Positions 1,331-35,718 of a stretch of DNA of 40,037 nucleotides are shown here, piece after piece. Positions within the stretch are counted from its first letter, which is position 1. Every line of letters begins with the position of its first letter. The DNA comes from an uncultured Coriobacteriaceae bacterium (GTDB taxonomy: Bacteria > Actinomycetota > Coriobacteriia > Coriobacteriales > Atopobiaceae). The position numbers and the translations under genes were made by a program. The stretch is taken from the NCBI GenBank assembly GCA_902795065.1, contig CADBJR010000032.1, positions 1-40,037 of the forward strand. Reading direction: 5' to 3'. The notes beneath the pieces are model-generated. The model was given only the letters and a program-made list of their open reading frames with translations, was not told the origin of the DNA and did no database searches.

Positions 1331-1482
1331 GGTGCCATTTCCGGGTTTGAACAGAGTTTGAACAGAGGGACGGAGGATTCGTTCATCCGTCTCTCGGATG
1401 AACGAATCCTCCGTCCCTCTGTTCAAACTCTGTTCAAACGGACGAATCCTCCGTCCCTCTGTTCAACCCCGGAAATGGCACC
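1331..1482. repeat. Composite long-palindrome repeat (GGGACGG family, element 1)
   Basis: Perfect 45-bp inverted arms (1345-1389 and 1395-1439) surround a 5-nt loop. The right half is then partly repeated in direct orientation at 1440-1466. An outer inverted repeat of 15 bp (1331-1345 and 1468-1482, GGTGCCATTTCCGGG) encloses everything. Each arm carries a tandem TTTGAACAGAG and the core GGGACGG at 1367-1373. The element sits between the lipoprotein gene and the ATPase gene of one transport system. No ORF is supported inside it. It resembles a REPIN or MITE; the class is inferred from shape only. Confidence 0.8.
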
Positions 1483-1506
1483 TACGACGTTCGATGATTG
1501 GAAGCT

Positions 1507-3042
1507 ATGGACACGAGAACCCCAGCTGTGCGCATGCGGGGCATCACCAAGGAGTTCGCCGGCAAGGTCGTGGCCAACAAGGACGTTGACCTCGACATCT
1601 ACCGCGGCGAGATCCTCGCGCTCCTCGGTGAGAACGGCTCCGGCAAGACCACGCTCATGAACATGCTGTCGGGCATCTACTTCCCCGACAGCGGCTCGAT
1701 CGAGATCGACGGCGAGCCGGTGGTGATCTCCTCGCCCAAGATCGCCTACGACCACGGCATCGGCATGATCCACCAGCACTTCAAGCTGGTGAACGTCTTC
1801 ACGGCCGCCGAGAACATCGTGCTCGGCCTGGTGGACAACCGCAGGTTCGACCTTGCAGCCGCCGCCGCGAAGATCAACGAGATCTGCGATGCCTACGGCT
1901 TCGACGTGGACCCCTACCAGAAGGTCTACGACATGTCCGTGTCGCAGAAGCAGACGGTCGAGATCGTCAAGCTGCTGTTCCGCGGCGCCGACATCCTCAT
2001 CCTCGACGAGCCCACGGCCGTGCTCACCCCGCAGGAGACCGACAAGCTCTTCGCGGTGCTGCGCAACATGCGCGACGACGGCAAGGCGATCATCATCATC
2101 ACCCACAAGCTCCACGAGGTGCTCGACATCTCCGACCGCGTGGCGATCCTGCGCAAGGGCGAGCATGTGGGCGACATGGTGACGTCCGCGACCACATCGC
2201 AGGAGATGACCAACATGATGGTCGGCCATCAGGTCACCCTGAACATCGACCGTCCCGAGCCCGTGAACACGTTCGAGCGCATCCGCGTCGAGGGCCTCAC
2301 CGTGGTCGACCACGAGGGCGTCGTCAAGCTCGACGACGTGTCGTTCTCGATGAACGCGGGCGAGATCCTCGGCATCGCGGGCATCTCAGGCTGCGGCCAG
2401 AAGGAGCTGCTGGAGGCCATCGCCGGCCTGCAGCCGGTCCAGAAGGGCAGCATCGACTACCTGCACCGCGACGGCAGGGTCGAGAGCCTCATCGGCAAGG
2501 ACCCCCTCGAGATCGCCGCGATCGGCGTCGCCCTCTCCTTCGTGCCCGAGGACCGCTTGGGCATGGGCCTGGTCGCCAACATGGACCTCGCCGACAACAT
2601 GATGCTGCGTTCCTTCAGGAACGGGCACTCGGTCTTCACCGACCGCAAGGCGCCCGCGCATCTTGCGGAGAAGGTCGTCGAGGAGCTCGAGGTCAACACG
2701 CCGAGCATCCACACCGCGGTGCGCAGGCTCTCGGGCGGCAACGTGCAGAAGGTGCTCGTCGGCCGCGAGATCGCGTCGGCACCGAGGGTGCTCCTCTCGG
2801 CCTACGCGGTGCGCGGCCTCGACGTCAACTCGTCGTATCTGATCTACGACCTGCTCAACGAGCAGAAGCGCAAGGGCGTCGCCGTTGTGTACGTGGGCGA
2901 GGACCTCGACGTGCTGCTCGAGCTCTGCGACCGCATCCTCGTCCTGTGCGGCGGCAAGGTGAGCGGCATCGTCGATGGCCGCACCGCCACCAAGAACGAG
3001 GTCGGATTCATGATGACCAAGCTGGGAGGAGGTGAGGCATAA
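1507..3042 (+). CDS. ABC transporter ATPase, two nucleotide-binding domains (nucleoside importer type)
   Basis: Energises the BMP-type importer. Two ABC domains lie in one 511-aa chain. The first has Walker A GENGSGKTT (about residue 41), Q-loop HQHF and Walker B ILILDEPTAV. The second has the degenerate Walker A GISGCGQKE usual for this family, signature LSGGNVQK and a VRGLDV Walker B region. Two deviations are visible: the first signature reads MSVSQKQ where family members usually have LSVGEQQ, and the second Walker B region has AVRGLD for PTRGLD. ATG 1507 is preferred. A TTG at 1498 in frame would add three residues, and GGAAG just upstream gives only a closely spaced ribosome-binding site. 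The permease gene starts immediately after the stop codon, so the genes are co-transcribed. Confidence 0.9.
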   Translation: MDTRTPAVRMRGITKEFAGKVVANKDVDLDIYRGEILALLGENGSGKTTLMNMLSGIYFPDSGSIEIDGEPVVISSPKIAYDHGIGMIHQHFKLVNVFTAAENIVLGLVDNRRFDLAAAAAKINEICDAYGFDVDPYQKVYDMSVSQKQTVEIVKLLFRGADILILDEPTAVLTPQETDKLFAVLRNMRDDGKAIIIITHKLHEVLDISDRVAILRKGEHVGDMVTSATTSQEMTNMMVGHQVTLNIDRPEPVNTFERIRVEGLTVVDHEGVVKLDDVSFSMNAGEILGIAGISGCGQKELLEAIAGLQPVQKGSIDYLHRDGRVESLIGKDPLEIAAIGVALSFVPEDRLGMGLVANMDLADNMMLRSFRNGHSVFTDRKAPAHLAEKVVEELEVNTPSIHTAVRRLSGGNVQKVLVGREIASAPRVLLSAYAVRGLDVNSSYLIYDLLNEQKRKGVAVVYVGEDLDVLLELCDRILVLCGGKVSGIVDGRTATKNEVGFMMTKLGGGEA

Positions 3043-4122
3043 GTGATCCACATCACCAAACGCAAGGAGATGCCGCTGTGGCAGTCGCTGGCCGTCCGTC
3101 TGGGCGCCATCGTCATCGCGCTCGTGGTCTGCGGCTTCATCACGACCATCACGACGGGCCTCAACCCCATCGACGTGTACGCGACCATGATCAAGGGCGC
3201 CTTCGGCACCGCCCGCAAGACCTGGACGCTCCTCCAGGAGCTGGCCATCCTGCTCTGCATCTCCGTGGCGCTCACGCCCGCGTTCCGCATGAGGTTCTGG
3301 AACCTCGGCGGCGAGGGCCAGATCCTCATCGGCTGCTTCGCATCCGCCGCCTGCATGATTCTGCTCGGCGATAAGGTCCCCAATGCCGTGCTCATCCTCA
3401 TCATGTTCGTGACATCGGTGGCGGCGGGCGCCATCTGGGCGCTTATCCCCGCCATCTTCAAGGCGCGCTGGAACACCAACGAGACGCTCTTCACCCTGAT
3501 GATGAACTACGTGGCGACGCAGATTGTCGCATACTTCGTCATCGTGTGGGAGGTCCCCAAGGGCTCCGGCAACATCGGCATCATCAACCAGTCCACCGAG
3601 GCCGGATGGTTCCCGGTGATCGGCGGCCAGAAGTACCTGCTCAACGTGGTGCTGGTCGCGATTGTCACGGTGCTCATGTACATCTACCTCAACTACAGCA
3701 AGCAGGGCTACGAGATCTCCGTCGTCGGCGAGAGCACCAACACGGCCCGCTATGTGGGCATCAAGGTCGACAGGGTCATCCTGCGCACCCTGCTCATCTC
3801 CGGCGCCATCTGCGGCTTCGCCGGCCTGCTGCTGGTCGCGGGCACCAACCACACGCTCACCACCACGCTTGCGGGCGGACGCGGCTTCACGGCCGTCATG
3901 GTGGCGTGGCTCGCCAAGTTCAACCCGCTCGTGATGATCGCATCGAGCTTCCTGCTGGTCTTCATGGACAGCGGCGCCGGCGAGATCTCGATGGCGTTCG
4001 GCCTCAACCACAGCTTCGGCGCCATCCTCACCGGCATCATCCTGTTCTTCATCATCGGATGCGAGTTCTTCATCACCTACAAGGTCAATTTCGCCAAGAA
4101 GGAGGGTGAGACCAATGCTTGA
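3043..4122 (+). CDS. ABC transporter permease 1 (nucleoside/BMP importer type, BPD_transp_2)
   Basis: First integral membrane subunit of the importer, 359 aa, with about eight to nine hydrophobic segments. Family features include the RFWNLGGEGQILIG stretch near residue 85 and a large conserved block VGESTNTARYVGIKVDRVI on the cytoplasmic side. It starts with GTG directly after the ATPase stop, preceded by GGAGGTG. Its 3' end overlaps the start of the second permease by 8 bp, indicating translational coupling. It should pair with the second permease to form the channel. Confidence 0.9.
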   Translation: MIHITKRKEMPLWQSLAVRLGAIVIALVVCGFITTITTGLNPIDVYATMIKGAFGTARKTWTLLQELAILLCISVALTPAFRMRFWNLGGEGQILIGCFASAACMILLGDKVPNAVLILIMFVTSVAAGAIWALIPAIFKARWNTNETLFTLMMNYVATQIVAYFVIVWEVPKGSGNIGIINQSTEAGWFPVIGGQKYLLNVVLVAIVTVLMYIYLNYSKQGYEISVVGESTNTARYVGIKVDRVILRTLLISGAICGFAGLLLVAGTNHTLTTTLAGGRGFTAVMVAWLAKFNPLVMIASSFLLVFMDSGAGEISMAFGLNHSFGAILTGIILFFIIGCEFFITYKVNFAKKEGETNA

Positions 4123-5054
4123 TCTGGTGTCCTTCATCCCCCGTGCCGTGGCGCAGGGCATCCCCCTGCTCTTCGGCAGCACCGGTGAGATCGTTACCGA
4201 GAAGTCCGGCAACCTCAACCTCGGCATTCCCGGCGTCATGTACGTCGGCGGCATCTGCGGCGTTATCGGCTCGTTCCTCTACGAGCGCAGCGTTCCCGAC
4301 CCGTCGATGATCAACCCCGCGCTCGGCGTGGCCATCCCCGTGGGCTGCTGCCTGCTGGGCTCCCTGCTGATGGGCCTGCTCTACTGCTTCCTCACCGTCA
4401 CGCTGCGCGCCAACCAGAACGTGACCGGCCTTGCGATGACCACCTTCGGCGTGGGCTTCGGCAACTTCTTCGGCGGATCGCTCATCAAGCTCACCGGCGC
4501 GACCGTCCCGTCCATCGCCCTGTCGTCCACAAGCAGGCTGTTCCGCACCACGCTCCCGTTCGCGTCCAGCATGGGCTGGTTCGGCAAGATGTTCCTCTCG
4601 TTCGGATTCCTCGCCTACGTGGCCATCGTGATCGCCATCGTCGCGTCGTACATCCTGAACAGGACCAAGATCGGCCTGCAGCTGCGCGCCGTGGGCGAGA
4701 ACCCCGCGACGGCAGACGCCGCCGGCATCAACATCACGCGCTACAAGTACGTCGCCACGTGCCTCGGCTGCATGATCGCAGGCCTCGGCGGCCTCTACTA
4801 CGTGATGGACTATGCGAACGGCGTGTGGTCCAACGACGCCTTCGGCGACCGCGGCTGGCTCGCCATCGCGCTCGTCATCTTCACCATCTGGCGCCCGAAC
4901 GTGAGCATCCCCGCGTCGATCCTGTTCGGCGGCCTGCAAGATGTTCCCGTACGTGGTCACGATCGTGGTGCTCGTGCTCACGAGCCTGCGCAACAAGCGC
5001 GAGAACCAACCGCCGGAAAGCCTCGGCCTGCCATACTTCCGCGAGGAACGTTAA
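4115..5054 (+). pseudogene. ABC transporter permease 2, frameshifted with apparent internal deletion near the 3' end
   Basis: Second membrane subunit of the nucleoside-type importer. ATG 4115 follows GGAGGGTGAGACC. The frame is good up to LFGGL (about codon 274, near 4936), then switches to meaningless Arg/Ala/Pro-rich sequence that would run to 5113. In another frame, from 4938 onward, the expected C-terminus appears: KMFPYVVTIVVLVLTSLRNK and then a SLGLPYFREER ending, stopping with TAA at 5052-5054. In homologues as I recall them, about 15-20 residues lie between these two parts. The simplest reading is a deletion whose length is not a multiple of three. It could be a true mutation that damages the transporter, or an assembly error. 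A conventional caller would report 4115-5113. Confidence 0.8.
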
Positions 5055-5060
5055 CCGAAC

Positions 5061-5089
5061 GCGCGCCCCATACCGGGGCGCGCTTCTTT
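5061..5089 (+). terminator. Rho-independent terminator of the nucleoside ABC operon
   Basis: A perfect 9-bp GC stem (GCGCGCCCC / GGGGCGCGC) with a 5-nt loop is followed by TTCTTT, directly after the true stop of the second permease at 5054. Confidence 0.85.
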
Positions 5090-5096
5090 GATTCGC

Positions 5097-5190
5097 CGAG
5101 GTCGGCATGTTAAAAAGGGACGGGTACAATTTTACGTTTACTCTGCAAAACGTTAAATTGTACCCGTCCCTTTTTAACATGCCGACCTCG
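5097..5190. repeat. Long-palindrome repeat (GGGACGG family, element 2)
   Basis: Two 43-nt inverted arms (5097-5139 and 5148-5190) with one mismatch flank an 8-nt loop. The core GGGACGG lies at 5117-5123 within AAAAAGGGACGGGTACAATT. The right end is 17 bp before the next start codon, so the hairpin lies in the leader of the AAA ATPase gene and just after the previous terminator. No ORF is supported within. Confidence 0.8.
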
Positions 5191-5207
5191 ACCGACACGG
5201 AGCAGAG

Positions 5208-5909
5208 ATGAACGACCTTTTCATCCGCAGCCTGAGCATCGACTGGGACGAGATCCCGGAATCGTCGTACGTGCGCGGCATCACGGCCGTCGCGCGCCTC
5301 GATGGGCTCGTGTTCGAAGGTCCCGTCACGGTCTTCTCGGGCGACAACGGCACGGGCAAGTCCACGCTGCTCGAGGCGATCGCCGTCGCAGCGGGGTTCA
5401 ACGCCGAGGGCGGCACGCGCAACTACCGATTCAGCACCTACGACGACGTGTCGGAGCTCTGCCGCGCCGTGCGACTCGTACGCGGGTTCCGCCGCATCAA
5501 GGTCGGGAGCTTCCTGCGCGCCGAGAGCTTCTTCAACGTGGCGAGCACGGCGATGCGCGAGTACAACGATGACGGCGCCATGGAGGACTGGCATGCCGAG
5601 TCGCATGGCGAGAGCTTCCTGTCGTTTATCACCAAGTACCGCCAGCCCGGCCTCTTCCTCATGGACGAACCCGAGGCGGCCCTCTCCCCGCAGCGCCAGC
5701 TCGTGCTCGCGAAGCATGTCGCCGAGAAGGCGCAGGAGGGTTCCCAGTTCATCATCGCCACGCATTCGCCGATCCTGCTCGCCATCCCCTGCGCGCGGAT
5801 CCTCTCGTTCGACGGCGGGGTCGTCCACGAGTGCGCCTATGATGAGGCAGGCGCCGTCCGGCTCATGCGCTCGTTCCTCGACGATCCCGAGGCGATGCTG
5901 GGAGAGTGA
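5208..5909 (+). CDS. AAA/ABC-like ATPase (COG3910-type predicted ATPase)
   Basis: A soluble stand-alone ATPase of 233 aa. Walker A is GDNGTGKST (residues 45-53), a signature-like SHGES lies at 132-136, Walker B with LMDEPEAALSP lies at about 151-161, and the H-loop is ATHSP (184-188). This layout matches SMC/RecF-like AAA_15/AAA_21 single-domain ATPases and not a transporter ATPase. No permease is adjacent. Family members are often called predicted ATPases of unknown substrate, sometimes near nuclease or defence genes; nothing of that type lies here. ATG 5208 is preceded by GGAGCAGAG. The gene lies alone between the hairpin element and the ACT-domain gene. Confidence 0.8.
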   Translation: MNDLFIRSLSIDWDEIPESSYVRGITAVARLDGLVFEGPVTVFSGDNGTGKSTLLEAIAVAAGFNAEGGTRNYRFSTYDDVSELCRAVRLVRGFRRIKVGSFLRAESFFNVASTAMREYNDDGAMEDWHAESHGESFLSFITKYRQPGLFLMDEPEAALSPQRQLVLAKHVAEKAQEGSQFIIATHSPILLAIPCARILSFDGGVVHECAYDEAGAVRLMRSFLDDPEAMLGE

Positions 5910-5998
5910 GGACTGTAACGCGCCCGTGTCGCCCCGGTATCCCGGGCCTGCACCTGCGCTATCATCGTGTGTGCATCAGCTGAGAGCCAGGAGAACAC

Positions 5999-7411
5999 AT
6001 GCGCAAGACCTACATCACCAACATGCCCGACCAGGCGGGCGCCTTCCTCACCGCAACGCGCGTCATCACCGAGGCGGGAGGCAACATCGTCCGCGTGAAC
6101 TACAACCGTGCGGTCGACACCCACACCCTGCTTATCGAGGTCGACGCGACCGAGGAGCAGCAGGAGGTCATCTCCAAGCGCCTCGAGGAGGTCAAGTACC
6201 TCGTCGACGATCCCGGCATGCGCCAGATCATCCTCATCGAGCTCGTGCTGCCCGACCGTCCCGGCTCGCTCCTGCCCACCCTCGAGATCATCAAGAACCA
6301 CGAGGTCAACATCCCCTATATCAACTCGCAGGAGAACGGCACGCCCTACCAGAACTTCAAGATGGGCCTGCTCGTGGAGAACACCGCCGAGATCAAGGAC
6401 CTGCTCGACGATCTGTCGCAATACTGCGAGGTGCGCGTGCTGGACTACGAGTCCACCGACCGCCTGCTCGACTCCACGATCTTCTACGTGACGTTCGCCA
6501 ACAAGCTGCGCGAGCTGCTCGGTCTCAGCCAAGACGAGACCAACGGCGCCCTCTCGAGCGCCAACAAGGTCATGCAGGTGCTCGACAAGCGCCATGAGTC
6601 GCCGCGCATCGCCTTCGACAACATCCTGCGCTTCGCGAACATGGTGGCCGAGCACCAGGGCGAGCGCTTCCAGCCCACGGTCACCTCGCGCGTGCTCGAT
6701 CCCGAGCTCACGCTGCACATCATCGAGCCTCCGCTCGGCGGCAACACCTACGTGCTCGAGTACTACGAGGCGCTGCTGTTCATCGACTGCGGCCTCGGCT
6801 GCTTCCGCAAGGAGATGATGGGGGTGCTCGACAAGCTCTTCCCGGGCTTCGAGACGCGCCGCAAGAGCATCGTGCTCACCCAGGCCGACGTGGACGCTGC
6901 GGGTCTGGGCAGCATCTTCGACACGGTCTACCTCGTGCGCGACAGCTACGACAGCTTCAAGGCGGAGCAGCGTGGACGCGGAGGCCTGCGCGAGCGCAAG
7001 GCCTCGAATGCGCCCTTCGTCGCGCTTTCCAAGATCGTCTCCGACTACGAGCCCCCGCAGCTGGGCCATTGCGCCGTCATCGGCGAGCGCACGGGCGATG
7101 ACCCGCTGGAGTTCATCGGGTCGATCCGCTTCGGCAACTGGTTCTTCGAGGTGCTCGAGGGAGCCGGCGGCCACGTCGCGGGCGAGACGGTCGTCGCCTG
7201 CCCGGAGCTTAGAATCGTCTTCACGGGCGATCTGGTCGTGAACGAGGAGGGCATGTCGCTTGAGCAGCAGGAGTACGAGGCGCTCCAGCCCTACCTGCTG
7301 ACCAGCTACGATGCCAATCCCGCGCTGGCGGACGCCTGCCGCGCCGAGCTTGCCGAGCGCTATGCCGGCTACACCGTGCTGCCCGGCCGCGGTCCCGTGA
7401 TGTGGGCGTGA
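5999..7411 (+). CDS. ACT-domain plus metallo-beta-lactamase-like protein with altered metal site
   Basis: Unusual fusion of 470 aa. Residues 1-70 and about 75-150 look like two ACT ligand-binding modules (MPDQAGAFLTATRVITEAGG; LPDRPGSLLPTLEIIKNHEV). From about residue 235 a metallo-beta-lactamase fold follows (PPLGGNTYVLEYYEALLFIDCG; GGHVAGETVV; RIVFTGDLVVN). In related clostridial proteins, as I recall them, the metal motif reads THADVDHCG; here it is TQADVDAAG (Q295, D297, D299, A300), so both histidines are missing. The later His in GGHV and Asp in TGD remain. The protein may therefore be a ligand sensor and not a hydrolase. ATG follows AGGAGAACAC. The downstream esterase gene overlaps its end, suggesting coupling. 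Confidence 0.75.
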   Translation: MRKTYITNMPDQAGAFLTATRVITEAGGNIVRVNYNRAVDTHTLLIEVDATEEQQEVISKRLEEVKYLVDDPGMRQIILIELVLPDRPGSLLPTLEIIKNHEVNIPYINSQENGTPYQNFKMGLLVENTAEIKDLLDDLSQYCEVRVLDYESTDRLLDSTIFYVTFANKLRELLGLSQDETNGALSSANKVMQVLDKRHESPRIAFDNILRFANMVAEHQGERFQPTVTSRVLDPELTLHIIEPPLGGNTYVLEYYEALLFIDCGLGCFRKEMMGVLDKLFPGFETRRKSIVLTQADVDAAGLGSIFDTVYLVRDSYDSFKAEQRGRGGLRERKASNAPFVALSKIVSDYEPPQLGHCAVIGERTGDDPLEFIGSIRFGNWFFEVLEGAGGHVAGETVVACPELRIVFTGDLVVNEEGMSLEQQEYEALQPYLLTSYDANPALADACRAELAERYAGYTVLPGRGPVMWA

Positions 7412-8244
7412 CGGAAACGACAACCGAGAAGCGTTCTATAGAGGCGGCGAACCATCCGCTGAAGCTGCTTGCGGTCCGTCCGAAAACCCAATCCGGAAAG
7501 CTGCCGGGCGTGCTGTGGATCCACGGCGGCGGGTACCGCTTGGGTATGGCGGGGATGGTGCACATGTCGCGCATGGCGCCGCTTGTCGCTGCAGGCGAGG
7601 CTGTGGCCGTCTCGCCCGAGTACCGTCTAGCGGATTCCGCACCATATCCCGCAGCCCTCGACGATTGCTATGCCGCGCTCCTGTGGCTGCGCGATCATGC
7701 TGATGAGCTGGGCGTTGCCTCCGACCAGATCTTCGTGGGCGGGGAGAGCGCGGGCGGCGGTCTTGCGGTAGCGACGTGCCTGCTCGCGCGTGACCGCGGC
7801 GAGGTTTCCGTGGCCTACCAGATGCCGCTCTACCCGATGCTCGACTGGCGCGATACCGAAAGCTCGCGCGACAACCATGGCCGCGTGTGGAACACCAAGC
7901 GCAACCACTGGGGTTGGAAGGGCTACCTCGGCGATCTGTGGGGGAGCGACGACGTGCCTGCGTACGCCTCGCCGGCGCTTGCCGAGGACCTCTCGGGCAT
8001 GCCGCCCTGCTACACCTTCGTGAACGACGGCGAACCGTTCTTCTCCGAGACCCTCACGTATGTGCGCAGGCTCCAGGCTGCGGGTGTGCCTGCGGAATGC
8101 AACGTCTACCATGGCGATATGCATGCGTTCGACATGCTCACGCCCTGGACGCGCAATGCCAAGGATGCAACGGCTGCCTTCGAGGCGCACTTCGCCGCTG
8201 CTACCGCGCGTTACCGCGCCGCTCAGCGAGAGGGAGTTTCCTGA
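7402..8244 (+). CDS. Alpha/beta hydrolase, hormone-sensitive-lipase/acetyl-esterase type
   Basis: Predicted carboxylesterase of 280 aa with the HSL-family oxyanion motif HGGG (41-44), nucleophile motif GESAGGG with Ser116, and a His in HGDMHAF near residue 240. The likely acid lies in the NDGEPFF segment near 213. No signal peptide is present, so it is cytoplasmic. The start is uncertain: the GTG at 7402 overlaps the end of the previous gene, and a second GTG at 7408 is possible; neither has a clear ribosome-binding site, so translation may be coupled. Small acyl or acetyl esters are the expected substrates, possibly from sugars given the neighbouring GH3 gene; this is inference. Confidence 0.8.
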   Translation: MGVTETTTEKRSIEAANHPLKLLAVRPKTQSGKLPGVLWIHGGGYRLGMAGMVHMSRMAPLVAAGEAVAVSPEYRLADSAPYPAALDDCYAALLWLRDHADELGVASDQIFVGGESAGGGLAVATCLLARDRGEVSVAYQMPLYPMLDWRDTESSRDNHGRVWNTKRNHWGWKGYLGDLWGSDDVPAYASPALAEDLSGMPPCYTFVNDGEPFFSETLTYVRRLQAAGVPAECNVYHGDMHAFDMLTPWTRNAKDATAAFEAHFAAATARYRAAQREGVS

Positions 8245-8263
8245 GCTTGCCTAAGGAGCAGCC

Positions 8264-8806
8264 CTACTTCTTGCTAATCTGCTCCAAGCCCGAATAGAAG
8301 ATCTCGCGCAGCAGCTTCTGCACCTCGTTGAAGTGCTTGCTCCGCTTCCATCCCATCTGGTTGTTCACGGCGATATTGCCCGAAGCGGCGAAGATGAACA
8401 CGAGGCGGGCGGTCTCCTCATCAAGGCCTGAACGCTCCATGACCTGCGGAATCCCCTCTTTGCCCCCGCGCTCCAGGATATGGCGCGTCACGTGCGGGAG
8501 CGTATCGGAGCCCTCGTAGAGGAGGCGGTAGTCGTCATTGGCGGGAACGCGCTGGCAGAGCGTGTGCTCCCGCTCGCTGAAGGGAGGTTCCTCGTCGAGC
8601 GCCTCGTCTATCACCGCATCGAGCAGGTCGTATTTATCCACATAGTGAAGATAGAAGGTTCCGCGGTTGATCTCGGCAATGCGGCAGATGTCAGCAACCG
8701 ATGTCTTGTCGAAGCCCTTCTCACGCAACAGCTCGAAGAAGGCCTCGCGGATGACCTGCTTGGTGTAACGTGTGCGCCTATCCTCGCGCTTTGCCTGCTC
8801 TTCCAC
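8264..8806 (-). CDS. TetR/AcrR-family transcriptional regulator
   Basis: DNA-binding one-component regulator. The N-terminal helix-turn-helix is clear (TKQVIREAFFELLREKGFDKT then VADICRIAEINRGTFYLHY), followed by a C-terminal ligand domain ending in FYSGLEQISKK. GTG at 8806 is preferred because GGGGTGG lies a few bases upstream; a TTG at 8824 would add six residues. The gene is divergent from the GH3 gene starting at 8973, and the shared spacer has inverted repeats, so it probably controls that gene and itself. It is convergent with the esterase gene, 19 bp away. Confidence 0.88.
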   Translation of the reverse strand: MEEQAKREDRRTRYTKQVIREAFFELLREKGFDKTSVADICRIAEINRGTFYLHYVDKYDLLDAVIDEALDEEPPFSEREHTLCQRVPANDDYRLLYEGSDTLPHVTRHILERGGKEGIPQVMERSGLDEETARLVFIFAASGNIAVNNQMGWKRSKHFNEVQKLLREIFYSGLEQISKK

Positions 8807-8835
8807 TGGAAACCACCCCAACAATATTCGAGTTC

Positions 8836-8925
8836 CGATAGTTTATCGACACTTCGGGACTATCGTTCATTGCCTAGCAAATCAACGCATAGTGTAATTA
8901 TAGACAAGTGTTGATAAATATACAC
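8836..8925. promoter_or_regulatory. Candidate TetR operators in the TetR/GH3 divergent spacer
   Basis: This AT-rich spacer has CGATAGT (8836-8842) facing ACTATCG (8859-8865). It also has TTATCGACACT (8843-8853) facing AGTGTTGATAA (8907-8917, one mismatch), and GTGT-n10-ACAC at 8908-8925. A possible promoter toward the GH3 gene is TTGCCT (8870) with TGTAAT (8893). Binding is inferred from position and symmetry. Confidence 0.45.
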
Positions 8926-8972
8926 GGTGTTTTTTGATAGTGCGGAATAGCAATGCAGGAAAGGGGAAGGAA

Positions 8973-11825: not shown

Positions 11826-11852
11826 ATAATCGGAGACACCCCTTCCCCCTTT

Positions 11853-17755: not shown

Positions 17756-17818
17756 GTCGAATTGACACTTTTGGGATAAATGCTCGCGTTCAAATTATCC
17801 CAAAAGTGTCAATTCGAC
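17756..17818. repeat. Long-palindrome repeat (TTTTGGGATAA type, element 3)
   Basis: Perfect 24-bp arms (17756-17779 and 17795-17818, GTCGAATTGACACTTTTGGG with ATAA) flank a 15-nt loop. It differs in sequence from the GGGACRG elements but has the same shape and intergenic position. It lies between the convergent acetyltransferase and metallo-hydrolase genes and could act as a terminator there. Confidence 0.75.
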
Positions 17819-25306: not shown

Positions 25307-25330
25307 GGCGCCGTACGGAGGGAGCCTGCC

Positions 25331-25966: not shown

Positions 25967-26005
25967 CGCTCGGGGCTTTCACGATACCCTGCTCGGAACC
26001 GCAGT

Positions 26006-26162
26006 GCACCGAAAACCCGCTGACGTATCAGAAACACCTTCCGATGCTATGTGGGGGACTTCTGCTATGAAAAAACAGGAAAATCGACGCAGCAATATGC
26101 AGAATCACGGTTCATGGAAGGGTGGAATTCGAACCGCTGATACGTCAGCGGGTTTTCAGTGC
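26006..26162. mobile_element. MITE-like element with 26-bp terminal inverted repeats
   Basis: The 364-bp gap between the GyrI-like and GH3 genes holds two 26-bp inverted repeats (26006-26031 and 26137-26162) with one mismatch. Their shared core is AAAACCCGCTGACGTATCAG. They enclose 105 bp that is less GC-rich than its surroundings and has no supported ORF. No clear target-site duplication is seen. It could be a non-autonomous transposable element or a very long operator; no transposase is nearby. Confidence 0.55.
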
Positions 26163-28760: not shown

Positions 28761-29068
28761 GAGACGGAAGATGTCCAGGCTCGGCACGCTCATCTGATGC
28801 TGGGTCTTCGAGAGCGCTGATCGGGGGCCTGATTAGACGAGCGTGCTCGAGGACTGTCGGAATAGCACCGCTGCCGTCATGAGCGGGACGACAACCCGGC
28901 CTGCGATAGGGTAGAATCTGAGCAAGGAACCCGCTGGAGCCCATATGCCAAGCTTCGGCACGAGAAGGGACGGGTGCATGAGGGTCTAGACGATGCAAAC
29001 GTCAACCGCCCGTTTTCGCGGATGGGCCGACGCGGCCTGCGGATCGGGCATGCATCGAGAGGATTGTC
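28761..29068 (+). other. 308-bp non-coding gap before the ABC-F gene
   Basis: No supported gene. An 8-codon reading frame at 28771-28797 has a ribosome-binding-like GGAGACGGAAG, and its first bases repeat the preceding GH3 end (ATGTCCAGGC). A possible -10 TAGAAT lies at 28912-28917. A single copy of AAGGGACGGGT at 28965-28975 matches the core of the palindrome element at 5097, but without an opposing arm. Confidence 0.5.
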
Positions 29069-30556
29069 ATGCAGCTCAATCTATCCAACATCGAATACTG
29101 CTATCCGCTCGCGGAGGATCCCATCCTGCGCGGCATCACCGCTTCGTTCCCGCGGGGCTGGATCGGCATTGTGGGAGACAACGGCTGCGGCAAGACCACG
29201 CTCGCGCGCATCGCCTGCGAGCTCATCACGCCCGACGCCGGTTCCGTGGGGCCTTCGCTTGTGAGCGCCTACTGCGCGCAGGATGCCACGAATCCCCCCG
29301 ACAACCTCGAGGAGTTCGCCGCAGCGTACGATCGCCGAGCCTCCCGACTCAGAACGACGCTCGCGCTGGAGGACGATTGGCCTTGGCGCTACGGAACGCT
29401 CTCGGGAGGGCAGCAGAAGCGCCTGCAGGTCGCCTGCGCCATCTGGGAGGAACCCGATGTGCTCGTGATGGACGAGCCCACCAACCACGTGGACGCCACC
29501 ACGCGCGAGGAGATCTTCCAGGCGCTTGCCGGCTTCGGCGGCATCGGCATCCTCATCTCGCATGACCGAGCCCTGCTCGACGGTCTGTGCACGCAGTGCC
29601 TCTTCATGTCGGACGGTGCCGCGGTCATGCGGCCGGGCGGCTATACGCAGGCGTCGGGGCAGGCTGCGCTCGAACGTGAGAGCAGCATGCGGGCGCGCGA
29701 GGATATGCGCCGCGAGAAGAAGCGCATCGAGCGGGAGGCGCAGCGCAGGCGCGAGACCGCCGCGCAGAAGGAGGGCAAGAAGAGCCTTGCCGGCATCGCC
29801 AAGCACGACAACGATGCCCGCCATAAGAAGCGGCTGGCGATCGTGACGGGCACCGACGGAATCGCCGCCAAGCAGGCCGGCGTCATGGAGGCGCGGGCGG
29901 GGCGCATGTCGGAGCAGCTCGACCAGATGCGCGTGGAGAAGCGCTACGACGCCGACATCTGGCTCGAGGCCACTCCGAGCAGGCGTCCCGTGCTGCTGAG
30001 GCTCGAGGCGGCAGAGCTGCCGATGGGGGAGAGGACCCTCGTTTTCCCGCCGCTGTTCATCGGGCGCAGCGACCATATCGGGCTCGTGGGCGACAACGGC
30101 AGCGGCAAGACCACGCTGGTCAAGCATCTGGTGGAGCGCATGCCCGAAGGCGTGCGCGTGCTCTACATCCCGCAGGAGCCGACGATGCGGCAGCAGGCCG
30201 AGGCGCGCGAACGCCTCGTCGGGCTCGCAAGCGCGGAGCGCGGGCGTGCCCTCTCGATCGTCGCGCAGCTCAATTCGGAGCCCGACCGTATCCTCGAGGG
30301 CGACGCCATCAGCCCCGGCGAGATGCGCAAGCTCATGCTCGCCCTCGGCATTCTGGAGAGCCCCGAGCTCATCGTCATGGACGAGCCCACCAACCATCTT
30401 GACCTCGGGTCGGTGGAGGCGCTCGAGCGGGTGCTCGCAGCGTTTCCGGGAGCGCTGCTGCTGGTCAGCCACGATGCAGCATTGCTCGGCTCTACGACGG
30501 ACATCACCTGGCGTATCGATGCGGGAGACGGTGCGTGCATCGTCTCGATCGGGTGA
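29069..30556 (+). CDS. ABC-F family ATPase
   Basis: Soluble protein of 495 aa with two ABC domains and no membrane part, the ABC-F layout of ribosome-acting translation factors and some resistance proteins. The first domain has Walker A GDNGCGKTT (36-44), LSGGQ (111-115) and DEPTNHVD (135-142). A highly charged Arg/Lys/Glu-rich linker follows (about 205-265). The second domain has GDNGSGKTT (about 343), signature ISPGE in place of LSGGE, and DEPTNHLD. The Pro in the second signature is a visible change that occurs in some resistance-type ABC-Fs. Whether it is housekeeping or antibiotic-protective cannot be told from the sequence. ATG follows GAGAGGATTGTC. Confidence 0.87.
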   Translation: MQLNLSNIEYCYPLAEDPILRGITASFPRGWIGIVGDNGCGKTTLARIACELITPDAGSVGPSLVSAYCAQDATNPPDNLEEFAAAYDRRASRLRTTLALEDDWPWRYGTLSGGQQKRLQVACAIWEEPDVLVMDEPTNHVDATTREEIFQALAGFGGIGILISHDRALLDGLCTQCLFMSDGAAVMRPGGYTQASGQAALERESSMRAREDMRREKKRIEREAQRRRETAAQKEGKKSLAGIAKHDNDARHKKRLAIVTGTDGIAAKQAGVMEARAGRMSEQLDQMRVEKRYDADIWLEATPSRRPVLLRLEAAELPMGERTLVFPPLFIGRSDHIGLVGDNGSGKTTLVKHLVERMPEGVRVLYIPQEPTMRQQAEARERLVGLASAERGRALSIVAQLNSEPDRILEGDAISPGEMRKLMLALGILESPELIVMDEPTNHLDLGSVEALERVLAAFPGALLLVSHDAALLGSTTDITWRIDAGDGACIVSIG

Positions 30557-30621
30557 GCACGGCGGACTCTGCCAGAGCGGCTGCAGGGATGATTTGCCAC
30601 GTTCACCGCCGAAAGGGCGGA

Positions 30622-30680
30622 TTGACGTCGTCAACGGCCTCCTCCAACCGGCGTTTAGCTCTACTAAACCCATTTATACT
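30622..30680 (+). promoter_or_regulatory. Promoter region of arcC with two palindromes
   Basis: TATACT at 30675-30680 is a probable -10. Just upstream is the 17-bp palindrome GTTTAG-CTCTA-CTAAAC (30653-30669), in the -35 position, and further upstream TTGACG-T-CGTCAA (30622-30634). Both are candidate operators; no consensus -35 is properly spaced. Confidence 0.5.
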
Positions 30681-30693
30681 GGTCAACCTCGGA

Positions 30694-30762
30694 GGCAACC
30701 CATACGCTAAGGGTGTAAGGAACGCGGGTACCGTGATGTGCCCGTTGCCACGAAGCCAACGG
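30694..30762 (+). promoter_or_regulatory. Structured 5' leader of arcC with alternative pairings
   Basis: GGCAAC (30694-30699) can pair with GTTGCC (30744-30749), enclosing a hairpin CGGGTAC/GTGCCCG (30725-30744). The same strand segment CCGTTG (30742-30747) can instead pair with CAACGG (30757-30762). Competing pairings upstream of the ribosome-binding site suggest a switch; no known riboswitch class was recognised. Confidence 0.35.
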
Positions 30763-30780
30763 AACAGTGAGGAGAGACCA

Positions 30781-31746
30781 ATGCCCAGAATCGAGAATCC
30801 CGACCGCGTCGTCATCGCCCTCGGCGGAAACGCCCTCGGCGACACCCCCGCCGAGCAGATCGCCAAGGTCCGCGCCGCCGCCCCGACGCTCCTCAAGGTC
30901 ATCGGCATGGGCAACGAGATCATCATCACCCACGGCAACGGCCCGCAGGTCGGCATGATCCAGAACGCCTTCGCCGTCGCCAACGAGGCCAGCGGCGGCA
31001 AGTACCCCAAGATCGACCTGCCCGAGTGCGGCGCCATGAGCCAGGGCTACATCGGCTACCACCTGCAGCAGGCCATCGGCGCAGCCATGCACCGCAACTT
31101 CAAGCGCTGGCACGTCGCCACCGTGGTCACCCAGATCGAGGTCGACCCCGACGATCCCAGCTTCCAGAACCCCACCAAGCCCATCGGCGCCTTCATGACC
31201 AAGGAGCAGGCCGACGCCGAGCTCGCCGAGCACCCCGACTGGACCATCGTCGAGGACTCCGGCCGCGGTTTCCGCCGCGTTGTGGCTTCTCCCGAGCCCA
31301 AGAAGATCGTCGAGGCTCCGTCGATCCTCAACCTCCTCGACGACGAGTTCATCGTCATCGCCTGCGGCGGCGGCGGCGTGCCCGTGGTGCGCGACTACTC
31401 CGACAAGGGCTGCTACAAGGGCGTCGCGGCCGTCATCGACAAGGACATGGCCGGCGAGCTCCTCGCTGAGGACTGCCGCGCCGACATGCTCGTGCTGCTC
31501 ACCGCCGTCGACCACGTGGCCATCAACTTCGGCAAGCCCGACCAGGTCGACCTCGAGGACATCACCACCGAGCAGGCCAAGGAGTATCTGGCCGAGGGCC
31601 AGTTCGGCAAGGGCTCCATGGAGCCGAAGGTCCGCGCCGCCATCAAGTTCGCGGAGAGCCGCCCCGGCCGCACCTGCATCATCGGCTCCCTCGAGAAGGC
31701 CGACAAGGCCATCTCCGGCAAATCCGGCACCCGCATCCACATGTAG
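30781..31746 (+). CDS. arcC: Carbamate kinase
   Basis: Makes ATP from carbamoyl phosphate and ADP, the energy-yielding last step of agmatine or arginine fermentation. The 321-aa protein has the family blocks VVIALGGNALGD at the N-terminus, ITHGNGPQVG (about 49-58), the QAIGAAM segment, CGGGGVPVV (about 198-206) and the ending KSGTRIHM. ATG 30781 follows GTGAGGAGAGACC. It lies in the same direction as ptcA and aguA but is separated from them by a LuxR gene on the other strand. It has its own promoter region and terminator. Confidence 0.95.
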   Translation: MPRIENPDRVVIALGGNALGDTPAEQIAKVRAAAPTLLKVIGMGNEIIITHGNGPQVGMIQNAFAVANEASGGKYPKIDLPECGAMSQGYIGYHLQQAIGAAMHRNFKRWHVATVVTQIEVDPDDPSFQNPTKPIGAFMTKEQADAELAEHPDWTIVEDSGRGFRRVVASPEPKKIVEAPSILNLLDDEFIVIACGGGGVPVVRDYSDKGCYKGVAAVIDKDMAGELLAEDCRADMLVLLTAVDHVAINFGKPDQVDLEDITTEQAKEYLAEGQFGKGSMEPKVRAAIKFAESRPGRTCIIGSLEKADKAISGKSGTRIHM

Positions 31747-31783
31747 CCTCCCCGCCGCCGCGGCGGCGTCCCAACAGGAAGAG

Positions 31784-31809
31784 GGCCCCCGGGGAACCGG
31801 GGGCCTTTT
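31784..31809 (+). terminator. Rho-independent terminator of arcC
   Basis: GGCCCCCGG, loop GGAA, CCGGGGGCC and TTTT, 40 bp after the stop codon. Confidence 0.9.
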
Positions 31810-31828
31810 CATATACCGTCGGAACGAT

Positions 31829-31905
31829 CGTTTCTGTCAAAGGGACAGGTTGTTTGACAGGTAAACCGTTTACCTGTCAAACAACCTGTCCCTTTGACAG
31901 AAACG
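31829..31905. repeat. Perfect 77-bp palindrome (GGGACAG family, element 4)
   Basis: Two perfect 38-bp arms (31829-31866 and 31868-31905) are separated by one base. The core GGGACAG is at 31842-31848. Each arm also contains its own 8-bp inverted repeat CTGTCAAA/TTTGACAG, so each half could fold alone. It lies between the arcC terminator and the last codons of the convergent LuxR gene. Confidence 0.85.
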
Positions 31906-31909
31906 TCTT

Positions 31910-32881
31910 CTATGCGGCCCAGAAGCTCTTCTTCAGCTCCTCGCGCGAACCCGTGCCGGTCTTCTTCATGATGTTGTGCACATGCGACTTGATGGTGCCC
32001 TCCGAGAGGAACAGCTCGCTCGCGATGGCGCGGTTGTCCTTGCCCGCGAGGACCAGGGCCAGCACCTCGGACTCGCGTGCCGAGAGCTTGTTCGCCTTGG
32101 CGAACGAGGGCATGGAGTCCGCGATGTGGTGTGCGAGGTCCCCTTCTTGGCTGATCTCGCTCTGGGGCTGCGAGAAGCGCAGCTTGAGCAGGTTGAGGGC
32201 CTTCCTGATGCAGTGGTAGGCGATGAAGATCATCAGGATGTTCTCGGAGAAGTTGCGCTCGGAGAGGTAGAGGGTGAGGGAGCTCACATTGGGGTCGGGC
32301 ATGGGGGCGAGGATGATGACCCACAGGTCCTCGAAGAAGACGAGCAGGACCAGCAGGCACAGGATGATGAAGTTCACATGGTGCTTCCCGAGCCGCTCGC
32401 GGTACGCACCGTCCTTGGACGCAGCCCATTTCATGAACGCGAAGATGAGGATGAACGCGGCGAAGGCCTGCCTGAGCGTGTAGAAGGCGAACTGGCGCAT
32501 CTGGCCGTGCGGCATCACGGTGAGGACCAGGATGCTTGCGAGGGCATAGATGGCAGGAGGGATGATGGCGGTACTGCGGTCGTGGATGTCGAGCATGCGC
32601 AGCATCATGAGCCAGAGGCTCGCGAGGATGCCCGTCCCGGTGATGACGCGCAGGACGGGGGAGGAGATCTCGTAGTAGAACTCGCCGGAGAACGAGATGT
32701 TCTGGGAGAGCCATTCGTTGCCGAAGATGCCCGCGAGCTCGATGATGTAGAACACGAAGAGGGAGACCTGGGGGAGGAACGACTTGCGCTCGCTCACGAG
32801 GTATGCGGCGAGCGAGAGGATGGCGGCTGCGAAGAACACGAGCATGATGCAGACGCTGTAGATGAAGATGAAGACGTTCAT
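31910..32881 (-). CDS. LuxR-family regulator with membrane N-terminus (possible agmatine sensor)
   Basis: One-component membrane regulator of 323 aa. About seven to eight hydrophobic segments fill residues 1-230 (VFIFIYSVCIMLVFFAAAIL; FIILCLLVLLVFFEDLWVII; NILMIFIAYHCIRKA). The C-terminus is a LuxR helix-turn-helix (LSARESEVLALVLAGKDNRA then IASELFLSEGTIKSHVHNIM). Such proteins are abundant in Coriobacteriia. Here it lies inside the agmatine gene cluster; Enterococcus AguR, the agmatine-sensing activator, is also a membrane LuxR protein, so a similar role is plausible. ATG 32881 follows GGCGGAGGGTCCC. It is divergent from ptcA and convergent with arcC. Confidence 0.88.
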   Translation of the reverse strand: MNVFIFIYSVCIMLVFFAAAILSLAAYLVSERKSFLPQVSLFVFYIIELAGIFGNEWLSQNISFSGEFYYEISSPVLRVITGTGILASLWLMMLRMLDIHDRSTAIIPPAIYALASILVLTVMPHGQMRQFAFYTLRQAFAAFILIFAFMKWAASKDGAYRERLGKHHVNFIILCLLVLLVFFEDLWVIILAPMPDPNVSSLTLYLSERNFSENILMIFIAYHCIRKALNLLKLRFSQPQSEISQEGDLAHHIADSMPSFAKANKLSARESEVLALVLAGKDNRAIASELFLSEGTIKSHVHNIMKKTGTGSREELKKSFWAA

Positions 32882-32905
32882 GGGACCCTCCGCCATATGA
32901 ACCCG

Positions 32906-33060
32906 AGTTTATGGCATAAAACTGCGGAATCTCCGTTCAGGTTTAGCGTGAGTTTATCGCCGTGGGCATGCAATCGCAAGGTCTCAGCGGCTATTGAACC
33001 TTCGTTTGAGGCGGGTTACGCTCGGTGAGCGGTAAGTAAACCTTAATCAGCTCGTAAACT
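32906..33060. promoter_or_regulatory. Repeated AGTTTAT motifs between the LuxR gene and ptcA
   Basis: AGTTTAT occurs at 32906-32912 and 32951-32957, ATAAAACT at 32916-32923 and GTAAACT at 33054-33060. The arcC upstream region also carries GTTTAG/CTAAAC. They may be binding sites for a shared regulator, but the motif is short. Confidence 0.3.
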
Positions 33061-33157
33061 CTCCGGGTTTGTCCCAAGATGAAGCTGTCCCACTTATACC
33101 AGGGCGGCTGCGGATGCCGCACAAGGGGCCGGTGCGCCGGCGGAAAGGAAGGCAACA

Positions 33158-34178
33158 ATGGCATTCCCCAAGGACTTCATCGACACCAATGACCTCACCG
33201 GAGAGCAGATCCTCGCCATCGAGGACCTCGCCATCGCTATGAAGAAGGCCATCAAGGTCGACGGGTACTACCCGCACCTGCTCCGCAACAAGAGCCTCGG
33301 CATGATCTTCCAGCAGGTCTCCACCCGCACCCGCCTCTCCTTCGAGACCGCCATGTGCGACCTCGGCGGCCATGCCCAGTTCTACGGCCCCGGCACCATC
33401 CAGCTCGGCGGGCACGAGTCCCTCGGCGACACCGCCCGCGTCATGGGCGACCTGCTCGACATCATGATGGCCCGCGTCAACCGTCACGCCGACGTCCAGG
33501 GCCTCGCCGCCGGCTCCGCCGCCCCCGTCCTCAACGGCATGTCCGAGTACAACCACCCCACCCAGGAGATCGGCGACCTCCTGACCATGATCGAGAACCT
33601 CCCCGAGGGCAAGAAGATCCAGGACTGCACCCTCGCCTTCATCGGCGACGCCACCCAGGTCTGCGTCTCCCTCATGTTCGTCGCCTCCAAGGTCGGCATG
33701 AAGTTCGTCCAGTTCGGACCCAAGGGTCATCAGATCCCCGACGGCGGCCTGCATGTCGGCACCAAGGAGGAGCGCGCCGAGTTCGGCAAGCAGCTCATGG
33801 CTGTTGGCGAGGCTAACTGCGCAGTCTCCGGCGGCTCCATCGTCATCTCCGACGACATCGAGTGCATCAAGGGCGCCGACTTCATCTACACCGACGTGTG
33901 GTACGGCCTCTACGACGACGAGGTCGAGGGCGAGAACTACATGGACGTCTTCTATCCCAAGTACCAGGTCACCATGGACCTCATGAACTACGCCGGCCCC
34001 AACTCCAAGTTCATGCACTGCCTGCCCGCCACCCGCGGCGAGGAGGTCGTGGACGAGGTCATGGACGATCCCGAGCGCTCCCACCTTCGGCCGCCGCACG
34101 CCGCTCAACGACGAGGGCGTCGAGTACTCCGCCAAGGAGGAGCTGCACGCCGCGCTCGCCAAGATCGAGTCCCTCTAA
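33158..34178 (+). pseudogene. ptcA: Putrescine carbamoyltransferase, frameshifted with missing C-terminal segment
   Basis: Would cleave carbamoylputrescine to putrescine and carbamoyl phosphate. Visible: carbamoyl-phosphate motif STRTR (55-59), HPTQ (133-136), HCLP (287-290), and VFYPKYQV (264-271), which favours the putrescine over the ornithine enzyme. The adjacent aguA supports this. After DDPERS (about codon 308, 34080) the frame breaks. In another frame the sequence continues [20 protein letters not shown] and [11 protein letters not shown], stopping at 34178, which aligns with the extreme C-terminus of family members. The block expected between, including the conserved AENR arginine, is absent. 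So a deletion of roughly 20-25 codons, not a multiple of three, is inferred. A plain caller would report 33158-34189. Start after GGAAAGGAAGGCAACA. Confidence 0.82.
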
Positions 34179-34189
34179 GCTTTCACTGA

Positions 34190-34213
34190 GAGCCGGCGCC
34201 TCTGCGCCGGCTC
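34190..34213 (+). terminator. Hairpin terminator after ptcA
   Basis: Perfect 10-bp stem GAGCCGGCGC / GCGCCGGCTC with loop CTCT, followed by the T-poor ACTCGCTTCTCTT, so it may be leaky and allow read-through into aguA. Confidence 0.65.
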
Positions 34214-34292
34214 ACTCGCTTCTCTTGGCTTCACCCCGTCGGCCTTGGGCGCGGAATCGTACTGAGGCCGGCAGGCATGTTTTTTTGGTAAT

Positions 34293-34370
34293 GCCTTCGT
34301 TTTTCTCCGCCGCAGTTCCGCAGCGCGCTTTTTGCGCGAGGACTGTCTGAGGACGGAGTAAAACGAAGGC
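34293..34370 (+). promoter_or_regulatory. Long stem in the aguA leader
   Basis: A 17-bp outer stem (34293-34309 with 34354-34370, one mismatch) encloses an inner CAGTTCC/GGACTG pairing and a hairpin CGCGC-TTTTT-GCGCG. It ends 21 bp before ATG 34392, just ahead of the ribosome-binding site. It may be a regulatory RNA structure, an attenuator, or another palindromic repeat. Confidence 0.5.
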
Positions 34371-34391
34371 GCAGCAGAGAGAGGAAGCATC

Positions 34392-35597
34392 ATGCGTACC
34401 ATCTATGAGTCCGATTCCACGCCCAAGGCCGACGGCTTCTATATGCCGGCAGAGTGGGCTCCCCAGAAGCGCGTGTGGATGGGCTGGCCCCACCGCACCG
34501 ACACCTGGGCCCACGGCGCCAAGCCTGCCCAGAAGCAGTACGAGCACGTTGCCCGCACCATTGCCGAGTTCACCCCGGTCTACATGTGCGCCAACCAGGT
34601 CGACTACGCCAACTGCAAGGCCGTCTTCGAGGACTGCGAGAACGTGCATGTCATCGAGATGACCACCGACGACGCTTGGTTCCGTGACACCGGCGCCACC
34701 TTCGTCATCGACGGCAAGGGCGGCAAGCGTGCCGTGCACTGGCACTTCAACGCCTACGGCGGCCTGATCGACGGCCTGTACTTCCCCTGGGACAAGGACG
34801 AGCAGATCGCTCTCAAGATGGCCGAGATCGCCGAGGTCGAGCGCTATCGCCCCGACTACATGATCCTCGAGGGCGGCGCCATCACCGTTGACGGCGAGGG
34901 CACCGTCGTCGTGACCGACCAGAGCGTGCTCTGCCCCGGCCGCACCTGCTCCGCCGTTCTTGTTGACGAGGACGAGGACAACATCTGGCCCAACTACGGC
35001 CGCAAGTACGAGCCCTGGAGCGAGGAGCTTCGCGCCTACATCGAGAACGAGCTCAAGGAGTACCTCGGCGCCGAGAAGGTCATCTTCGTGCACGAGGGCA
35101 TCGATCCTTCCGAGACCAACGGCCACATCGACGACGTTGCGACCTTCATCGCCCCCGGCGTCATGGCCTGCATCTGGTCCGACGATCCCGAGTACCCGTT
35201 CTACGAGCAGTGCCACGCGGCGTATGAGACCCTCTCCAACGCTACCGACGCCAAGGGCCGCAAGCTCAAGGTCTACAAGCTCCCCATGCCCGTGAACCCC
35301 GTCTACATGGACCAGGCTTCCTGCGACTCCATCGACATCGACGAGAACGCCGAGCCGCGCGTTCCCGATGAGCCGCTGATCGCCTCCTACATGAACTACC
35401 TCGTGACCAACGGCGGCATCATCACCCCGCAGTACGGCGATGAGAACGACGATCTGGCCGTCGAGACCCTCCAGAAGATCTACGACGAGACCTGGGGCGA
35501 GGGCGCCTTCAAGGTCGTCGGCGTCAAGACCACCGAGCAGGTCGTCTTCGGCGGTGGCAACATCCACTGCATCACGCAGCAGGAGCCCGAGGCCTAA
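34392..35597 (+). CDS. aguA: Agmatine deiminase
   Basis: Hydrolyses agmatine to carbamoylputrescine and ammonia. The 401-aa protein shows the N-terminal MPAEWAPQKRVWMGWPHRTDTW block, DDAWFRDTGATFV, LEGGAITVDGEGTVVVTDQ, the catalytic His in NGHIDD (His245) and the catalytic Cys in GGGNIHCITQQ (Cys393). All belong to the guanidino-group-modifying AguA family. It is somewhat longer than the usual 360-380 aa because of an acidic insert around 195-215 (VDEDEDNIWPNYGRKYEPW), and the family LNPNR motif reads LCPGR. ATG follows GAGAGAGGAAGCATC. Last gene of the agmatine cluster; no agmatine/putrescine antiporter gene is next to it. Confidence 0.95.
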   Translation: MRTIYESDSTPKADGFYMPAEWAPQKRVWMGWPHRTDTWAHGAKPAQKQYEHVARTIAEFTPVYMCANQVDYANCKAVFEDCENVHVIEMTTDDAWFRDTGATFVIDGKGGKRAVHWHFNAYGGLIDGLYFPWDKDEQIALKMAEIAEVERYRPDYMILEGGAITVDGEGTVVVTDQSVLCPGRTCSAVLVDEDEDNIWPNYGRKYEPWSEELRAYIENELKEYLGAEKVIFVHEGIDPSETNGHIDDVATFIAPGVMACIWSDDPEYPFYEQCHAAYETLSNATDAKGRKLKVYKLPMPVNPVYMDQASCDSIDIDENAEPRVPDEPLIASYMNYLVTNGGIITPQYGDENDDLAVETLQKIYDETWGEGAFKVVGVKTTEQVVFGGGNIHCITQQEPEA

Positions 35598-35621
35598 GCA
35601 CGCAGGCTGATACGCTGACTG

Positions 35622-35655
35622 AGAGCCCCGCACTTCGGTGCGGGGCTCTTTCTTT
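35622..35655 (+). terminator. Rho-independent terminator of aguA
   Basis: 12-bp perfect stem AGAGCCCCGCAC / GTGCGGGGCTCT with a TTCG tetraloop and a TTCTTT tail. Confidence 0.92.
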
Positions 35656-35657
35656 GT

Positions 35658-35718
35658 GAGGCAGTTGGGGACGGTTCTATTTGTCTCAGAGACAAAAAGA
35701 ACCGTCCCCAACTGCCTC
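35658..35718. repeat. Long-palindrome repeat (GGGACGG family, element 5)
   Basis: Arms beginning GAGGCAGTTGGGGACGGTTC (35658) and its complement ending at 35718 form a hairpin of about 28 bp with a small internal mismatch and a short loop. The core GGGACGG is at 35668-35674. It abuts the aguA terminator. A partial copy of similar bases (GAGACAGCTGTCCC) follows near 35738-35752. Confidence 0.8.

Follow-up and report, generated by a model that had tools for sequence, protein, structure and literature searches.

What are the long palindromes that recur between the genes of an uncultured Coriobacteriaceae bacterium, and what could have spread them? Four of them, each built around a GGGACRG core, lie in a 40,037-nt stretch of contig CADBJR010000032.1 (the window), which belongs to a genome (G000) of 2.24 Mb and 97% completeness. 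A preliminary description of the window had likened them to REPINs, the repeats moved by RAYT transposases. Our analysis of the whole genome and its relatives indicates that the four palindromes are probably dispersed copies of repeats that flank RAYT genes in this or a sister species, and that they are likely non-autonomous and moved in trans as single-stranded DNA.

Palindromes and the RAYT genes flanked by the same repeats

An inverted-repeat scan of the window bore out the four elements with inverted arms and a GGGACRG core; the arms measure 31-45 nt, and their complementarity is 97-100%:

1331-1482, strand unassigned: B-type array of three units, with GGGACGGAGG cores at 1367 (+), 1411 (-) and 1451 (-)
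5097-5190, strand unassigned: C-type dimer, with GGGACGGGTAC cores at 5117 (+) and 5164 (-); 43-nt arms, 98% complementary
31829-31905, strand unassigned: D-type dimer, with GGGACAGGTTG cores at 31842 (+) and 31886 (-); 38-nt arms, 100% complementary
35657-35719, strand unassigned: A-type dimer, with GGGACGGTTCT cores at 35668 (+) and 35702 (-); 31-nt arms, 97% complementary

Inside the B array, the scan returned a palindrome at 1345-1439 with 45-nt arms that are 100% complementary. Folded as single strands, the four palindromes (1345-1439 standing for the first) scored 14.9-20.1 standard deviations below dinucleotide shuffles, and they contain 9 of the 20 GGGACRG occurrences in the window. 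The list of open reading frames (ORFs) confirmed the earlier statement that they are intergenic, as all four sit between larger ORFs, with the flanking products checked for ten ORFs.

Dispersed copies, which the preliminary description had proposed to look for, are abundant in the genome. The inward pattern of GGGACRG, 15-45 nt and CYGTCCC occurs 52 times per strand in G000 compared to 2 for a control pattern. The bases after the core set the families, which are A (GGGACGGTTC), B (GGGACGGAGG), C (GGGACGGGTAC) and D (GGGACAGGTTR), and a fifth core class, E, is a longer composite that starts with GGGACAGGTTGTTCG. Neighboring A units no more than 120 bp apart were inward in 19 cases, tandem in 18 and never outward, and this inward geometry is that of a RAYT locus without its gene. 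For D units, one outward pair was seen among 15. Tandem D units were also observed in three stretches of G000 (L221, L225 and L228), where the short spacers resemble parts of the flanking sequence repeated together with the unit.

Six RAYT-like Y1 transposase genes were found in G000 (named C4a, C4b, C6, C8, C16 and C44), and Pfam Y1_Tnp matches all six proteins. They are 246-252 aa long, and H59, H61 and Y118 are invariant in the RAYT alignment (A1); compared with C16, the other five show 35-43% identity. A helix-turn-helix search of the six gave weak matches, below the cut-off, in one of them. In a RAYT structure model most residues beyond 190 fell outside the matches, so the structural matches do not bear on the C-terminal fold.

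Matching repeats, a set of its own for each gene, lie on both sides of all six RAYT genes in G000. The flanks of C4a are the A sequence with the same core as 35657-35719, those of C8 are the C sequence as in 5097-5190, and those of C6 are a hairpin, TGACAATTCTCCTCGTAGGACTTTTGTCA, with copies in two further stretches of G000, one of them as an inverted pair. The flanks of these three of the six genes also occur as dispersed inverted pairs, and the earlier proposal to seek a Y1-type RAYT gene flanked by the same palindromes was thereby answered positively for the A, C and C6 types. AGACAGTTACCCGGTCATTTGTCT flanks C16, which also has an E-like unit upstream, and the flanks of C4b are a near-palindromic hairpin, GAGACA-GTGCTCCCGGGGAGGGG-TGTCTC, in the same orientation on both sides. 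C44 is flanked by GGGGGTACCCCC units; at its locus (L040, on contig C44), four such units bracket the RAYT gene in place of a GGGAC core.

The flanks were then compared over a larger set of RAYT loci, from which 17 of 105 loci were removed and 8 of 89 proteins were excluded because one flank was too short. At the 81 loci with both flanks of at least 250 bp, counting an inverted repeat at a score of at least 16, long flanking inverted repeats were present in 71, compared to 1 of 81 when flanks were exchanged between loci. GGGAC occurred in 50 of the 71 arms (13.7 in shuffles), reading into the gene in 39, only away from it in 1 and both ways in 10. When the arms were aligned on GGGAC, the next two positions were restricted (A or G at the first, mostly G or T at the second), and beyond them most positions held less than 0.6 bit.

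The pairing of repeat and RAYT was followed across five congeneric genomes, two of which (G002 and G004) are 68% complete. The A loop was counted 71 times in G000, 40 times in G002 and 5-7 times in the other three congeners (control pattern 0-3), and an A-type RAYT was found in two of the five, G000 (C4a) and G002 (L028). These two proteins are 65.6% identical, with similar upstream sequence and the same loop. For the C core the counts are 13 in G000, 10 in G004 and none in three congeners, and D units number 36 in G000, 7 in G004 and 0 in three congeners. D-type flanks were found at a RAYT gene of G004 (L023) and B-type flanks at one of G001 (L031). The same repeat is therefore present in dispersed copies and in RAYT flanks, within G000 for A, C and C6 and via sister-species RAYTs for B and D.

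Of 61 genomes of the family, 23 have a full-length RAYT frame, with a median palindrome count of 12, and 38 have none, with a median of 2. A clear palindrome excess was seen in 14 of the former and 2 of the latter, with no difference for the control pattern; the p-value of this association, 4.7e-7, is only indicative because the genomes are related. In another genome, G009, the arm of the RAYT locus (L016) reads GCGTGTC-AGGGGGACGGTTCTCTC-GACACGC and dispersed dimers read GGGACGGTTCTCTTGACACGC. Copy numbers, rather than biochemistry, suggest that each RAYT maintains its own family.

Unit anatomy and known repeat systems

In many cases a single arm is a stem-loop in its own right; the stem varies while its complementarity is kept, and the loop often contains GGGAC. 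The D unit forms the stem-loop CTGTCAAA-GGGACAGGTTG-TTTGACAG, so that each arm of 31829-31905 folds as CTGTCAAA-loop-TTTGACAG; the B unit forms CGTGAACAAA-GGGACGGAGGA-TTTGTTCACG and the A unit ACCTGCAA-TTGGGGACGGTTCCTTT-TTGCAGGT. Loops in clear units are 11-17 nt long. A perfect stem of at least 6 bp was present in 48 of 64 non-redundant RAYT arms (6.6 in shuffles), and in 76 of 211 GGGACRG contexts from G000 stretches chosen for their elements, compared to about 20 with the right sides exchanged. That arms differ outside the core had seemed puzzling, and is explained by the existence of several families and by stems that change yet stay complementary.

The system is TIRtron/REPIN-like and lacks the GTAG foot of canonical REPs. 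TIRtrons, with their TIRYT genes, were described by Di Nocera et al. 2013 as families of terminal inverted repeat (TIR) dimers with the motif GGGGWSAS (PMC3733652). As in TIRtrons, a Y1 gene lies here within long inverted repeats unrelated to GTAG REPs, and the dispersed families are moderately abundant and often dimeric (PMC3733652). The TIRtron motif was found in 21 of the 71 RAYT arms, whereas GGGACRG, often placed within a loop whose stem varies in sequence, was found in 40 of the 71; several sets coexist in one genome here, and copy numbers were compared with RAYT presence.

The likeness to REPINs lies in two inverted units with a short spacer, intergenic and dispersed, and in the tie to a RAYT gene that has these units on its flanks (Bertels and Rainey 2011; Nunvar et al. 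2010, PMC2817692; PMC8049555). Unlike in REPINs, of the 55 RAYT arms whose stem reaches 6 bp or more, 1 has a GTAG or GTGG foot 0-2 nt 5' of that stem, and the loops are much longer. The earlier comparison with REPINs and RAYTs thus holds for the dispersed copies and for RAYTs flanked by the same repeats, but not for the foot, and movement itself is argued indirectly.

By motifs and length, rather than by the published hidden Markov models, the RAYT proteins resemble TnpA-Y1 subclass 2.1: they share an NHVH-type HuH motif, a YIHxNP tyrosine motif, FQ, a length of about 250 aa and a C-terminal helical extension (PMC6006769). Quentin et al. 2018 placed 20 of 26 TIRYTs in this subclass, paired it with Bertels group 1 and reported no REP-like sequences beside subclass 2.1 genes (PMC6006769). 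The lineage found here therefore resembles one that had no REP-like partner in the 2018 classification (PMC6006769), whereas 71 of 81 loci in our set have flanking repeats, many of them stem-loops. If the palindromes are RAYT substrates, this partner gap would close, and some 70 natural RAYT-flank pairs would be at hand for learning how a HuH transposase reads a hairpin.

Two further known systems were compared. CGTC-tagged REPs are likewise short intergenic palindromic repeats, and arms here contain CGTCCC, but their tag is at the end and they have no known transposase (PMC3733652), while the palindromes here have the core inside the arm and RAYT partners. Identity with IS200/IS605 elements, which combine a short TnpA with near-identical multiple copies and no long inverted repeats, was rejected on the basis of proteins of 246-252 aa, long flanking repeats and 35-43% identity of the five others to C16.

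New here are a GGGACRG core that many units hold inside a stem of varying sequence and preserved pairing, its inward orientation, the presence of several RAYT-repeat sets in one genome, and, among congeners, copy numbers that go with the RAYT. By titles and abstracts, no description of such repeats in Coriobacteriia was found in the open-access literature; one paper, in the part available, mentions palindromic RNA candidates but not these repeats (PMC8040213). With six RAYT genes and several families, some of them with no local RAYT found, G000 would offer a system for testing repeat persistence or decay.

Orthologous gaps, proposed mechanism and competing explanations

Empty sites in relatives had been proposed as a check, and elements are indeed missing or different in sister genomes, but the surrounding gaps have diverged and the element ends and target site are therefore unreadable. 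In G001 and G003 the gap corresponding to that of the B array has no B palindrome, the C site in G004 holds a single unit ahead of the same gene start, and the gap of a fifth palindrome (17756-17818, treated below) is 16 bp long in G004. A 6-kb stretch that is 95.5% identical in G000 and G004 had no element among its indels. Because no clean empty site was found for B, C, D, A, the fifth palindrome or two elements of contig C4, we can only infer movement of the palindromes.

At the D site, G001 (L090, about 2440-2680) and G003 (L094) carry unrelated long palindromes with the common core GGCAC-K-TATTCCGC, whose outer arms differ between species yet pair within each; the site orthologous to 31829-31905 seems to collect palindromes. 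The C site in G001 and G003 holds other repeats. In the G003 gap orthologous to 5097-5190 (L057), several palindromes are centered on GACTGTACAGTC, one of them reading GTCCCTGCCGACTGTACAGTCGGCAGGGAC.

The B and C palindromes have outer arms (about 15 and 10 bp) that form perfect or near-perfect palindromes and are not common to the other copies seen. Those of the B array, GGTGCCATTTCCGGG, were found at that locus, and in the C dimer the portion common to other copies is ~5109-5178, with 5097-5106 and 5181-5190 being locus-specific. Either insertion into an existing hairpin or a local inverted duplication of one unit and its flank could account for them, and the single C unit in G004 favors local copying but does not prove it.

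If the palindromes are RAYT-flank repeats, one strand of a unit, when single-stranded, would fold into a stem-loop that the cognate RAYT holds by shape, accepting almost any stem sequence. The RAYT would read GGGAC plus the next few bases as a tag, cut, and then transfer units or dimers into other intergenic gaps, so that each RAYT would maintain its own repeats and a dimer would be what is left of a RAYT locus when only the two ends remain. Binding of TnpA-REP proteins to folded hairpins is strand-specific (PMC8266576), and loop-base dependence was reported in one of the two TnpA-REP groups studied (groups 2 and 3, not group 1; PMC8266576).

Several results, besides the lack of a clean empty site, weigh against this reading. 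Within the examined tenth of the genome, the C16, C44 and C4b repeats occur only at their own genes, and 10 of the 81 RAYT loci fell below the repeat threshold. No RAYT of the B or D type was found in G000 at its 97% completeness; since B and D flanks occur at sister-species RAYTs and not at the six of G000, its B and D RAYTs were lost, missed or never there. Nine of the 23 RAYT genomes, G009 among them, have no palindrome excess, and two genomes (G012 and G065) have an excess with no full-length RAYT. When units were folded alone, the expected stem-loop appeared only in D among the four window units, and of the 39 RAYT arms that have both GGGAC and a stem of at least 6 bp, 26 place the core in the loop (within 3 nt).

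A more elaborate version, which we put forward tentatively and hold to be possible rather than probable, is that these are parallel REPIN-like systems, with a tag of its own for each RAYT paralogue after an invariant GGGAC in the loop, and that some dimers, such as 5097-5190, arose by on-the-spot inverted copying. If this is true, repeat families would stay orthogonal within a single cell and nearly any stem sequence would be tolerated, while copying a unit on the spot together with neighboring DNA would explain the single-locus outer arms.

Among explanations that do without a RAYT, the palindromes could serve as intrinsic terminators, or as hairpins at mRNA ends, and be conserved along with the genes they follow, a role that the preliminary description had suggested. 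Their intergenic position, several directly after stop codons, fits this, and a short hairpin within D scores as terminator-like. Two separate hairpins from the terminator scan bear on it:

5061-5083, + strand: separate terminator-like hairpin just ahead of the C dimer
35621-35650, + strand: separate terminator-like hairpin just ahead of the A dimer

A and C each stand behind a separate scanned terminator, and termination therefore does not explain them; hairpins followed by T-runs, judged by eye, also precede B and D. The A, B and C palindromes themselves do not score for the intrinsic-terminator feature, a G+C-rich stem followed by a T-run. The same sequences also bracket RAYT genes in fixed orientation and are missing from or different at orthologous gaps. 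Termination is thus unlikely to be the reason for these sequences, and we consider conserved terminators an improbable account of the palindromes.

It is less probable again that the palindromes are sites for a host DNA-binding protein reading GGGACRG. Protein binding sites typically have a short, fixed core inside a palindrome, and genomes with no full-length RAYT, such as G012, can carry palindromes, but the units are long, with stems that change yet stay complementary, they stand in tandem and inward arrays, and between genomes they track RAYT genes. Least probable of all are miniature elements of a double-strand (DDE) transposase with RAYT genes merely captured between them, since 71 of 81 RAYT loci are bracketed with GGGAC nearly always reading into the gene, and the same loop is retained at a RAYT from another species with 65.6% identity, even though inverted ends with no coding capacity fit a miniature inverted-repeat transposable element and the fifth family is so far without a RAYT partner.

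Fifth palindrome and other features of the window

Two further features had been grouped with the four palindromes:

17756-17818, strand unassigned: fifth palindrome, of a separate dispersed family with TTGACACTTTTGGGATAA arms; 24-nt arms, 100% complementary; 8 places in G000
28967-28977, + strand: lone half-site GGGACGGGTGC, a possible relic or chance occurrence

The fifth palindrome had been described as sharing the build of the others. It is a real palindrome, with a fold 11.5 standard deviations below dinucleotide shuffles, but its arms, of the kind TCGARTTGACAC-TTTTGGGATAA, have no GGGAC and no stem inside each arm; the shared build was therefore rejected in favor of a different dispersed family. 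No RAYT partner has been found for this family so far. The lone half-site does exist, at 28967, but is not among the GGGACRG contexts with a stem of at least 6 bp, and because it lacks such a stem and GGGACRG occurs 20 times in the window, it may be a chance occurrence.

An Rfam gathering search of the window gave no match. The B array lies between a Bmp-type binding-protein gene on one side and an ABC ATPase gene on the other, and the D and fifth palindromes both lie between convergent genes. The window also contains two other, apparently intergenic inverted repeats, one at 26006-26162 (26 nt, 96%, 105 nt apart) and one at 34236-34435 (28 nt, 93%, 144 nt apart).

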